The notes beneath the pieces were generated by a model. It was given only the letters and a program-made list of their open reading frames with translations. It ran no database searches and was not told where the DNA came from. The translations under genes were made by a program, and so were the position numbers. Source: Prochlorococcus sp. AG-355-I04 (GTDB lineage: Bacteria > Cyanobacteriota > Cyanobacteriia > PCC-6307 > Cyanobiaceae). Taken from it: a DNA stretch of 64,000 nt. The stretch is from the NCBI GenBank assembly GCA_003280915.1, contig QCDL01000002.1, forward strand, positions 1 to 64,000, read 5' to 3'. Positions 55,150 to 61,759 of this stretch are shown here, in pieces. Positions within the stretch are counted from its first letter, which is position 1; the number at the start of each line of letters is the position of its first letter.

Positions 55150-57039
55150 TTAATTAACTAACTTAAATTTCTTAACAATTTTATCTGCCATCTGATCAGG
55201 CATAAGTCCTAATTTTTCTTTACTCTGATCAGGTGAAGCATGATCAACTAAGACATCAGGTATACCTATTCTGTATACAGGGATGTTTAATTCATTATCG
55301 CTAAATAATTCAACTATTGCGGAACCAAATCCACCTATTAAGGTTCCTTCTTCCATGGTTACAACTTTTTTAATCCTACTTGCTAAAGGCATAATGAGTT
55401 TTTTATCGAGAGGTTTAACAAATCTTGCATTAACAATGCATGCATTAATTTTCATATTCTTTAAGATCTTTGCTGTTTCAATTGCTGATGCGACCATTGA
55501 ACCATAAGCAATAATTAAAATATCTTCTCCTTCTTCAAGTATTTCAGCTTCGCCTATATTCAAAGGTTCCCAACCCTCATCCATTACAGCCACTCCTAAT
55601 CCAGAGCCTCTCGGAATTCTTAAAGCTGTAGGACCATCATGGTTTATTGAAGTTATTAACATTCTTTGTAATTCAGATTCATCCTTAGGAGCCATCAATA
55701 CAAAATTAGGTATAGATCTCATATAACTAATATCGTACTGACCTTGGTGTGTAGGACCGTCGGCTCCGACTATCCCAGCTCTATCAAGTACGAATGATAC
55801 AGGTAAATTTTGTATCCCTACATCATGAATTAATTGATCGAAAGCACGTTGAAGAAAAGTACTATAAATAGCTACAACAGGTTTAAGACCATCGCAAGAC
55901 ATTCCTGCCGCAAGAGTAACTGCATGTTGTTCAGCTATTCCTACATCGATATATTGATCAGGGATATTTTTTTGTAATATATCTAAACCAGTACCTGTAG
56001 CCATTGCAGCTGTAATACCAACGACTTTGCTATCTTGCTCACATATTTTTAATAAGGTTTGACCAAATATTTTACTATAACTGACAGGTTTAGGTTTCTT
56101 TGATGGAATAGATTTCCCAGTTGTAAGATCAAATGCAGACTGTGCATGATATCCAACCTGATCGGCTTCTGCATATGGGTAACCCTTCCCTTTTGTTGTG
56201 ACAACATGAACAAGTACTGGTCTTTTAAGTTTATGGGCAGCGTTAAAGGTCTTAATTAAGTTACCTATATCATGACCATCAATTGGACCCATATATGTAA
56301 ATCCAAGTTCTTCAAAAACAGCTCCAACCTTAGGCACAGATAGTCGTCTAACGCTTCCTTTAATATTTTTGAGTTCTTCTGGGATATCCTTTCCAATTAA
56401 GGGAATATTTTTTACACTTTCTTGAACACTATCTGACAAAAATTGCAATGGTGGACTAACTCTTACCTTATTTAAATAGGATGAAAGGGCTCCAACCGGA
56501 GGTGAAATAGACATGTCATTATCGTTCAATATTACAACTAAAGGGGTATTTGGTAAGTGACCTGCATGATTTATGGCTTCTAATGCCATTCCTCCAGTTA
56601 ATGCTCCATCTCCAATAACAGCGACACATTTATAATTTTCACCTTTTCTATCTCTTGCTATTGCCATTCCTAAAGCAGCAGAAATAGAAGTGCTTGCATG
56701 TCCAGCACCAAAATGATCAAATTTACTTTCACTTCTTTTTAGATATCCAGCGACTCCATTTTGCTGCCTTAGAGAATCAAATTGACTGAAACGTCCTGTA
56801 ATTAATTTATGAGGGTAACCTTGATGTCCTACATCCCATACAACTTTATCGAAATCAAGATCAAGAGTTTGATATAAAGCCAATGTCAACTCAACTACTC
56901 CTAAACCAGGACCAAGATGTCCACCACTAGTAGATACTACCTGAAGATGTCTTTCTCTAATTTGACAAGCAATTTCCTCTAATTGTGAAACTGTTAAGCC
57001 ATGAAGTTGATTAGGATGACTTAACTCACTTAAAAGCAT
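55150..57039 (-). CDS. dxs: 1-deoxy-D-xylulose-5-phosphate synthase
   Basis: A 629-residue thiamine-diphosphate enzyme; first step of the MEP isoprenoid pathway, feeding carotenoids and chlorophyll phytyl chains. The thiamine motif is around [20 protein letters not shown] (about 143-162). [14 protein letters not shown] is N-terminal, and [19 protein letters not shown] covers the transketolase central region. ATG start, full length. It diverges from ilvA. Confidence 0.97.
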
Positions 57040-57155: not shown

Positions 57156-58698
57156 ATGAATGATTATTTTGAAAAAATACTTCAAGCTAAAGTCTATGAA
57201 GTTGCAAAAAAAAACACCACTAGAGAAAGCTCATAATTTAAGTAGTACACTTAATAATGAAGTTTTTCTAAAAAGAGAAGATCTTCAGGATGTTTTTTCA
57301 TTCAAAATAAGAGGTGCATATAACAAAATGAGTAAGCTCACTAATTCACAGCTTGCTCAGGGAGTAATTACTTCAAGTGCTGGCAATCATGCTCAAGGCG
57401 TTGCACTTAGCGCCCTTAAGTTAAATTGCCAAGCAACCATATTAATGCCCATTACCACCCCTTTAGTAAAAGTTAATGCAGTAAAAAATTTAAAAGCTAA
57501 AGTTATATTATATGGCGATAACTATGATGAAACATACAAAGAGGCAATAAGGATTAGCAAAGAAAGAAATTTATGCTTTATTCACCCCTTTGATGATCTA
57601 GATGTAATAGCAGGACAAGGAACTATAGGTATTGAACTTGAACAGCAGCTTAAGGAAAAACCTTATGCAATTTATATTGCTGTAGGTGGTGGTGGATTGA
57701 TATCAGGAATATCCTTATACGTTAAGAAAATATGGCCTGAAGTAAAAATAATTGGTGTTGAACCAGAAGATGCTGATGCTATGACGAAATCGTTGGAAGA
57801 AGAAAAAATTGTGGAATTATCCTCTGTTGGTCAATTTGCAGATGGAGTGGCGGTTAAAAAAATTGGTAAAAATACCTTTGATATTGGAAGAAAATATATA
57901 GATAAGATGATTAGGGTTAATACCGATGAAATATGTGCTGCTATAAAAGATGTTTTTGAGGATACTAGATCAATACTAGAGCCTGCAGGAGCATTATCAA
58001 TTGCAGGAATGAAAAAAGATATTTTTAATTCGAATCATTCAAATAGAAAAATGGTTGCGATTGCATGTGGTGCCAATATGAATTTTGAGAGGCTTAGATT
58101 TGTAGCAGAAAGAGCAGAACTTGGAGAGTGTAAGGAAGTAATGATGGCTGTTGAAATTCCTGAACGTGCAGGTAGCTTAATTGATTTTTGTAAGTTACTT
58201 GATAATAGAAATTTAACTGAATTTAGCTATAGGATGTCGAATTCTAAGAATGCCCAGATCTTTGTAGGAGTACAAGTCTATGGATTAAATGATAAAAAAA
58301 CTCTTTTAAATATATTTAGAAATTCTGAGTACTCATTTATAGACATAAGTGATGATGAATTATCTAAAAATCATCTCAGACATATGGTAGGTGGTAGATT
58401 ACCAAAGAATTTTAAAGAAATGGATAATAATAACTTTGTTGAGGTTTTATACAGGTTTGAGTTTCCTGAAAGGCCTGGCGCATTAATAAACTTCCTAAAT
58501 AATATGAAATCAAATTGGTCTATAAGCGTATTTCACTACAGGAATTATGGTGCTGATGTAGGGAAAATTGTTATAGGAGTTTTAATAGATAGAAATGAAA
58601 TCTTAGAGTGGAATAAATTTGTAAGAATTCTAGGCTATAAATTCTGGGATGAAACTCAAAACGATACATATAAATTATTCCTTGGTGCATCACAATAA
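57156..58698 (+). CDS. ilvA: Threonine ammonia-lyase (biosynthetic), with apparent +1 frameshift near the N-terminus
   Basis: From ATG 57156 the frame encodes the family N-terminus (MNDYFEKILQAKVYEVAKK). At an A9 run (57206-57214) it slips out of frame and stops within nine codons. The rest of the enzyme continues in the next frame, which also opens at ATG 57160 as a 512-residue ORF with an atypical first 18 residues. The core is intact: PLP Lys49 in FSFKIRGAY, SSAGNHAQGV, the phosphate-binding VGGGGLISG and two ACT-like regulatory domains. It makes 2-oxobutanoate for isoleucine. One A fewer would restore the standard start. Confidence 0.94.
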
Positions 58699-58749: not shown

Positions 58750-59265
58750 CTGAATACCACGCCAATATCTAATATAGATCTAGTTACTAAAGTTGAAGCT
58801 GTTCTATATTTGAAAGGAAGACCTGTAACAAAAAAGGATCTTTCAGAAATTACTAATTCTGATATCAATTCAATAAATGATGCAATTAAAGATCTAAAAA
58901 ATAAATACTCTAATCCCAATTCAGCTATTGAATTAAATGGAGTTAATAACAGTTTTTCTCTCGAACTAAAATCAAGTCTTAATGAATTTGTCGATGATTT
59001 ACTTCCCTCTGATTTGAAAACATCAGAATTAAGGACATTGGCAACTATTGCCATCAAAAAAAAGATCCTGCAATCGGATCTTATACTTCTTCGAGGTTCA
59101 GGAGCTTATGATCATATTAAAGAATTATTAGAAAAAAAATTTATTGTCAAACGGAAGCAAAAAGATGGTAGATCATATTGGTTATCATTATCAGAAAAGT
59201 TTTTTCAAACTTTTGCTGTAAGTAATGAATATCTTTCCAACATAGGAAGCAGCAATAATAAGTAA
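58750..59265 (+). CDS. scpB: Segregation and condensation protein B
   Basis: A winged-helix partner of SMC-ScpA in chromosome segregation. LVTKVEAVLYLKGRPVTKKD and SELRTLATIAIKKKILQSDL are the family blocks. The first conserved block begins before the first common start codon (TTG 58810), so translation must begin further up. CTG 58750 is the best canonical-like candidate and ATT 58720, behind AGGAAAG, another; the frame is open from 58705. The Ndeg is therefore uncertain, the rest secure. Ends with a polar tail (SSNNK). Confidence 0.85.
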   Translation: MNTTPISNIDLVTKVEAVLYLKGRPVTKKDLSEITNSDINSINDAIKDLKNKYSNPNSAIELNGVNNSFSLELKSSLNEFVDDLLPSDLKTSELRTLATIAIKKKILQSDLILLRGSGAYDHIKELLEKKFIVKRKQKDGRSYWLSLSEKFFQTFAVSNEYLSNIGSSNNK

Positions 59266-59968: not shown

Positions 59969-61759
59969 ATGTCGAATATTGATTTAAAAAGAAGAACAAA
60001 AATAGTAGCAACTATTGGGCCTGCGACTCAATCTGAAGAGATAATTACAGATTTAATTAAAGCTGGAGTAACAACATTCAGATTAAATTTCTCACATGGA
60101 GATCATAAAGATCATGCTGAGAGAATAAGAACTATAAGGGAAGTATCAAAAAAATTAGATATAGATATTGGAATATTGCAAGATCTTCAAGGACCTAAAA
60201 TAAGATTAGGGCGCTTTAAAGATGGACCTGTAAAAGTTAAAAAAGGTGATAAATTCACACTGACTTCAAATGAAGTCGAATGTACAAATACTATTGCAAA
60301 TGTTACTTACGACAAACTTTCTAAAGAAGTTAGCGAAGGGAAAAGAATACTTTTAGATGATGGAAAAATAGAAATGATTGTAGAAAAAGTTGATATAAAA
60401 GCTAATAATTTGGAGTGCATGGTAACTGTTGGAGGGGTTCTTTCAAACAATAAAGGGGTTAATTTTCCAGATGTTCAATTATCAGTAAAAGCATTAACAG
60501 AAAAAGATAAAGAGGATTTAAAATTCGGTTTATCTGAAGGAGTTGATTGGATAGCACTAAGTTTTGTAAGAAATCCATCCGATATAAATGAAATAAAAGA
60601 TTTAATAAACAAAAATGGGCATTCAACTCCTGTAGTCGCAAAAATAGAAAAGTTTGAAGCAATTGATCAGATCGATACAGTATTACCCTTATGTGATGGG
60701 GTTATGGTTGCAAGAGGTGATTTGGGAGTAGAAATGCCTGCAGAAGAAGTTCCTCTTTTACAAAAAGAATTAATTAGAAAAGCTAATTCATTAGGTATCC
60801 CAATAATTACAGCGACCCAAATGCTTGATTCTATGGCTTCTAACCCCAGACCAACTAGAGCCGAAGTTAGTGATGTTGCAAATGCAATTCTGGATGGTAC
60901 AGATGCTGTAATGCTTTCAAACGAAACAGCAGTTGGCGATTATCCTGTTGAGGCAGTTGAAACGATGGCAACCATAGCAAGAAGAATTGAAAGGGATTAT
61001 CCACTTAAGGCTATTGAAAGCCACTTACCCAGTACGATCCCAAATGCTATTAGTGCAGCAGTAAGTAATATAGCTAGACAACTTGAAGCAGGAGCTATAA
61101 TCCCTTTAACAAAATCAGGTTCTACCGCTCGAAATGTAAGTAAGTTCAGACCACCAACACCTATCTTGGCAACTACTACAGAAAGAAGTGTAGCGAGAAG
61201 ATTGCAACTGGTTTGGGGAGTTACTCCAATAGTAGTTAAAAATGATGAAAGAACAGCAAAAACATTTAGTTTAGCTATGCAAATTGCTCAGGAGATGGGG
61301 ATCCTAAATCAAGGAGATTTAGTAGTACAAACCGCAGGTACCTTAACTGGAATTAGCGGTTCTACAGATTTGATAAAAGTCGGTTTAGTAAGAAAGATTG
61401 TATCAAGAGGAATTTCAATAGGGGAAATCGGTGTTACAGGTAAAGCAAGAATTATTAGAAATAATCTTGATATATCATTAATATGCCCAGGAGAAATATT
61501 ATTTGTTCCGAAGGAATTAATGAAAAATATTCCATTGAGTAAGAATATTGCTGGTATTGTTACGAACCAAGATGTAAATGATGTTTATGCTTTGTTTAAT
61601 AAAAATAATAAAAAGATTTCAACTATTTGTAATTTAGAAAATATGAATAATCATCAAATTAGTAATGGAGACCTCATTACACTGCAACTAAATGAAGGTG
61701 TTATATACATGGGACAAATTGAAGATGATGATGCAATAGATAAATATAAATATGTCTAG
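59969..61759 (+). CDS. pyk: Pyruvate kinase
   Basis: A 596-residue enzyme: phosphoenolpyruvate plus ADP to pyruvate plus ATP. RTKIVATIGPATQ at the start, then the catalytic-Lys region VVAKIEKFEAIDQID (about 218-232), MVARGDLGVEMP and ITATQMLDSMASNPRPTRAEVSDVANA. A C-terminal extension from about 480 resembles the PEP-utilising domain of Bacillus enzymes but lacks the expected His block. ATG start. It overlaps the following ABC permease gene by eight bases. Confidence 0.97.
   Translation: MSNIDLKRRTKIVATIGPATQSEEIITDLIKAGVTTFRLNFSHGDHKDHAERIRTIREVSKKLDIDIGILQDLQGPKIRLGRFKDGPVKVKKGDKFTLTSNEVECTNTIANVTYDKLSKEVSEGKRILLDDGKIEMIVEKVDIKANNLECMVTVGGVLSNNKGVNFPDVQLSVKALTEKDKEDLKFGLSEGVDWIALSFVRNPSDINEIKDLINKNGHSTPVVAKIEKFEAIDQIDTVLPLCDGVMVARGDLGVEMPAEEVPLLQKELIRKANSLGIPIITATQMLDSMASNPRPTRAEVSDVANAILDGTDAVMLSNETAVGDYPVEAVETMATIARRIERDYPLKAIESHLPSTIPNAISAAVSNIARQLEAGAIIPLTKSGSTARNVSKFRPPTPILATTTERSVARRLQLVWGVTPIVVKNDERTAKTFSLAMQIAQEMGILNQGDLVVQTAGTLTGISGSTDLIKVGLVRKIVSRGISIGEIGVTGKARIIRNNLDISLICPGEILFVPKELMKNIPLSKNIAGIVTNQDVNDVYALFNKNNKKISTICNLENMNNHQISNGDLITLQLNEGVIYMGQIEDDDAIDKYKYV

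Follow-up and report, generated by a model that had tools for sequence, protein, structure and literature searches.

Does Prochlorococcus sp. AG-355-I04 carry a gene for threonine deaminase (ilvA) that is split by a single base, or does the split belong to the draft sequence and not to the cell? In the stretch of DNA analysed, the first 64,000 nucleotides of contig QCDL01000002.1 (the window; 26–32% GC), an ATG at 57156 opens a frame which, in the window sequence and in the translation of its ORF, reads MNDYFEKILQAKVYEVAKK, 19 residues ending at 57212. The run of A's that directly follows the GC of an alanine codon is exactly nine bases long, its place being fixed by a pattern match over 57198–57218. 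Past the run the native frame reads NTTRESS and then meets a TAA (57234–57236), and the body of IlvA is open in the +1 frame (Table 1). Because a TGA (57157–57159) immediately adjoins the second ATG in the same frame as the 512-residue ORF, that frame can have no earlier start. A preliminary description of the locus had stated that the frame fails after nine A's and that the catalytic body continues one frame over, and the sequence is exactly as claimed. Nothing pointing to programmed recoding was seen in the neighbourhood of the gene within the window.

Table 1. Features of the ilvA region and the neighbouring control genes within the window (the names dxs, scpB-like and pyk are those we presume)
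Feature	Position	Strand
Native-frame 5' part of ilvA (19 native codons, then seven read out of frame, and TAA)	57156..57236	+
Second ATG, 4 nt past the first; sole start of the 512-residue +1 frame	57160..57162	+
Run of nine A's	57206..57214	+
512-residue frame: body of IlvA (threonine ammonia-lyase), catalytic and regulatory	57160..58698	+
dxs, intact control gene	55150..57039	-
scpB-like, intact control gene	58810..59265	+
pyk, intact control gene	59969..61759	+

The identity of the protein is clear. The 512-residue form scores 708.9 bits against NCBIfam TIGR01124, over the cut-off of 411.3, and covers profile positions 10–499 only, the start of the profile not being reached; what is missing concerns the annotated frame, and not the family of the IlvA body. 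An in-frame relative of 513 residues (L037) scores 734.9 bits and covers positions 1–499. Moreover, L037 aligns with E. coli IlvA (1tdj) from residue 3, across the stretch that is out of frame in the window and with VYE and TPL in register, which bears out the earlier suggestion that the 19 residues match the usual start of a threonine deaminase. Like the known threonine ammonia-lyases (TIGR01124, NF006674; PDB 1tdj and 8y1j), the window's body is a full-length biosynthetic enzyme with a two-copy C-terminal regulatory region; unlike them, its first 19 codons sit in another frame. The mean pLDDT of the structures predicted for the 512- and 513-residue forms (34 and 35) is too low to judge the N-terminus.

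The best relatives of the gene are found in Prochlorococcus genomes, mostly single-cell genomes as we take their names to mean. A search with the IlvA protein gave matches in 264 of the 266 genomes of the genus, a tally that includes weaker relatives of the enzyme. The +1 form was detected in two of the 266, the genome of the window (G000) and AG-426-L07 (G233), by a pattern that misses strongly diverged sites and in a collection in which many genomes are incomplete. For a closer comparison, 110 loci having the site, window included, were reduced to 85 distinct copies, those nearest the window (the 30 best places and the best 80 of 189 matches). Among these listed matches, 83 of the 85 copies read in one frame, 75 of them having eight A's and 8 an interrupted run, in line with the proposal that one A fewer would join the two parts, and only the window and the distant G233 have nine. 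The relatives, G233 excepted, carry the 513-residue form among the matches listed; the outcome that the preliminary description had named as fatal to its view, a 512-residue N-terminus in all of them, is not what the relatives have. At the DNA level the body is 95–96% identical to its nearest relatives among the listed matches, and the six nearest copies (95.2–96.3%) are all in frame. Between the two nine-A copies the identity of the body is 91.7%, and the closest in-frame relative listed is at 96.3% for the window and 94.65% for G233. Since each is nearer to in-frame relatives than to the other, the two insertions look independent.

Is ilvA the only gene so affected? Contigs C1–C4 of G000 (728 kb, about 47% of the genome) were compared with one reference, G012, a relative whose genome is complete. 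Among the 697 genes compared, 33 have an indel that is not a multiple of three and 14 a shifted stretch of more than 60 nt. Eleven of the 14 were dropped: in ten the shift falls on the probable start codon or ahead of it (among them genes that we take to be mreB, ispE and fabD), a matter of our own judgement, and one is a doubtful short ORF. By this judgement three of the 697 genes are truly broken, each by one additional A: ilvA (A8 to A9 relative to G012), gcvP and scpA. In gcvP, which codes for glycine dehydrogenase (C4:61975-64885, locus L228), A6 has become A7 next to a T-to-C change, at base 1218 of 2910; in scpA (C1:83771-84593, locus L120) A5 has become A6, at base 565 of 822. Both genes lie outside the window, and both breaks rest on G012 as the one complete relative. 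As they fall in mid-gene, no second start could restore full-length GcvP or ScpA. When G012 was examined in reverse (703 genes) no comparable break was found, its shifts being no more than 90 nt from a mechanical ORF start, at the end of a gene or in the pieces of gcvP and scpA. In the compared genes of G000, A/T runs of eight number 333 and those of nine 63; of the run-length differences seen apart from ilvA, one is of a whole codon and the rest are close to the start or the 3' end of a gene, some being shorter in G000. Differences at 3' ends, in either direction, were left out of the counts of breaks. The assembly of G000 is not grossly bad and is otherwise clean.

The sample of G233 (about 400 kb and the L041 locus, again with one reference) gave 11 genes with shifts of more than 60 nt, of which six, near the start or in poorly aligned ORFs of low identity, were dropped. 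The remaining five breaks in 310 genes are all +1 homopolymer insertions: in the gene for ribosomal protein S20, at a run of nine A's (L241:1004-1298), in a 2.1-kb gene (A6 to A7), in a DUF697 gene (G6 to G7), in an 86-codon ORF (A5 to A6) and in ilvA. As controls we used five neighbouring genes (396 copies, some partial, about 369 kb from 80 loci and the window), which had no uncompensated frameshift once the 3' end of scpB was set aside, where six loci have a 13-base difference; also set aside were paired shifts in dxs that compensate each other (three loci) and early stops in L060 and L106. In L060 (AG-424-P18) codon 504 of the 630 in dxs is an early in-frame stop, and the ilvA of the same locus stops two codons early. 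The two other breaks among 696 genes of G000 do not differ significantly from none in the 396 control copies (p 0.54); for G233 alone, with four more breaks in 309 other genes, p is 0.037, and for both genomes pooled 0.19. Each of the eight breaks counted, over both genomes, is an insertion (p 0.008, both ilvA cases included). The conserved genes among them would presumably be hard to lose.

We conclude that the observation is correct and that its cause is most likely an ordinary one. Probably the ninth A is an error of sequence or assembly, and the ilvA of the cell is an ordinary gene with eight A's and 513 residues. The length of the run may have been miscalled during sequencing, amplification or assembly, leaving a false ninth A in the draft genome; the real gene would then have eight A's and encode a normal 513-residue threonine deaminase starting at the first ATG, and the extra base would, we infer, be absent from the living cell. 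Of the three alternatives offered in the preliminary description, a sequencing or assembly error, a recent mutation rescued by the second ATG and slippage on the run, the first is thus the best supported, because single added A's also break two further conserved genes of the G000 assembly, gcvP and scpA, and because G233, the only other genome with the +1 form of ilvA, has a broken S20 gene. Like ordinary homopolymer errors in draft genomes, these are isolated +1 insertions in unrelated housekeeping genes; unlike such errors, the breaks in G000 occur at a low rate and long runs are not preferentially affected.

The strongest rival, which we hold to be unlikely but worth weighing, is a real and recent insertion in the cell or clone, with translation from the second ATG giving a full-length enzyme of 512 residues, its first 16 residues changed, that is tolerated, perhaps with reduced activity. 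In the window this is feasible: the second ATG is only 4 nt downstream, its frame is open across the entire body, and the TIGR01124 score drops only slightly, from 734.9 bits in the relative to 708.9. The 5' codons in the native frame resemble those of relatives, as expected of a recent event. The second ATG is present in 78 of the 85 copies listed, and codon 2, which is Asn in 81 of the 85 listed, is AAT in all 81, a weak point in favour as the copies are related. The ORFs of G000 use 12,025 AAT and 2,430 AAC for Asn; zero AAC at codon 2 slightly exceeds the expectation from codon usage, weakly so, again given the relatedness of the copies. On the other side, the tandem ATG seems, as read from the sequence, to be an incidental product of an Asn-Asp codon pair, for it is lost in the seven listed copies, those with AATAAT, AAAGAT or GATAAT there. 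From the second ATG the frame reaches the A run without a stop in 37 of the 85 listed copies; of the 78 listed that have this ATG, 41 have a stop ahead of the run, in most of them because a Val codon GTA, present in 43 of the 85 listed, reads TAG in the +1 frame. A conserved rescue by dual starts is ruled out by these 41 stops. In G233, the independent nine-A genome, the +1 frame is itself closed by a TAG upstream of the run, so that a real ninth A there could not be rescued from the second ATG. The rescue that the preliminary description proposed is therefore possible in the window, and is not conserved among the matches listed. Moreover, the stretch that would be replaced holds residues that are invariant in 17 aligned relatives and match E. 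coli IlvA, and the concurrent breaks in gcvP and scpA come without any such rescue.

IlvA catalyses the first step of isoleucine synthesis and supplies 2-oxobutyrate. G000 has one full-length copy, the other matches being partial and 23–25% identical. A second route to the isoleucine precursor was rejected, the sole LeuA/CimA-like gene of G000 scoring 229.3 bits where the cut-off for citramalate synthase is 450. With a single IlvA copy and no citramalate synthase over the cut-off, a true null would be expected to cost the cell its isoleucine synthesis; IlvA is apparently the sole supplier of the 2-oxobutyrate that isoleucine requires, which disfavours a null that is tolerated. Real changes in run length may be common in these cells, in that none of seven Prochlorococcus genomes (G000 and six relatives, G233 included) has a MutL over the family cut-off. 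In two reports, MED4 (PMC2921402) and several strains of P. marinus (PMC5101192) are likewise without mutL, and the genus seems to be without MutL. As the protein is below cut-off in all seven genomes, MutL does not set G000 and G233 apart. A mutator lineage through loss of MutS was ruled out: mutS1 is over cut-off and open in all seven, G000 and G233 again included.

In the remaining rival, the insertion is real and is partly corrected by slippage of the RNA polymerase or the ribosome, as in AT-rich endosymbionts of insects, so that in-frame and out-of-frame messages would occur side by side. We regard this as the least likely of the readings, and a very improbable one. Precedents do exist: frameshifted poly(A) genes of aphid and ant endosymbionts give 12–50% corrected transcripts (PMC5009743), Blochmannia vafer has eight genes with homopolymer frameshifts that are possibly corrected by slippage (PMC3017870), and bypass is more frequent on longer runs (PMC3812077). 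The low GC content of the window is also in favour. The gene resembles those of Blochmannia and Buchnera in having a single-base indel in an A run, in being otherwise intact and in belonging to an AT-rich genome (PMC3017870, PMC5009743). Among the endosymbiont frameshifts are some that different species share and some for which corrected transcripts have been measured (PMC3017870, PMC5009743); here, in contrast, the nine-A state is sporadic (2 of the 85 copies listed), unlike frameshifts kept for long in endosymbionts, it occurs together with breaks at short runs and with the G-run break of G233, and, both listed copies being nearer to in-frame relatives, there is no retention across related lineages without decay. 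The event required, the loss of one A or the gain of two, also speaks against slippage. In one study of E. coli RNA polymerase, the poly(A) runs tested gave no detectable slippage of the deletion type (PMC6260861), and in a study of Buchnera transcripts homopolymers held 151 of 157 insertions but 16 of 57 deletions, and no frame-restoring transcription error was detected (PMC5574713). Finally, scpA breaks at a run of six A's, too short for slippage going by the E. coli data.

What would the site mean for these organisms? The papers listed for Prochlorococcus with threonine deaminase or with ilvA frameshifts do not, apparently, deal with a frameshift in ilvA. It is scarcely credible that the run of eight A's is a real, recurrent switch in a MutL-less Prochlorococcus, in which cells or transcripts with eight and nine A's yield two forms of threonine deaminase that differ at the N-terminus and begin at overlapping start codons; if it were, isoleucine supply or its feedback control would be altered and the enzyme would not be lost. 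On the reading that we prefer, a miscalled run, the lesson is one of caution: the other homopolymers of a draft Prochlorococcus assembly should be checked before single frameshifts are called as the loss of a pathway or as recoding. If the insertion should prove real, ilvA would offer a small test case, in a free-living organism, of how mutations in run length are tolerated in AT-rich genomes that are without MutL.
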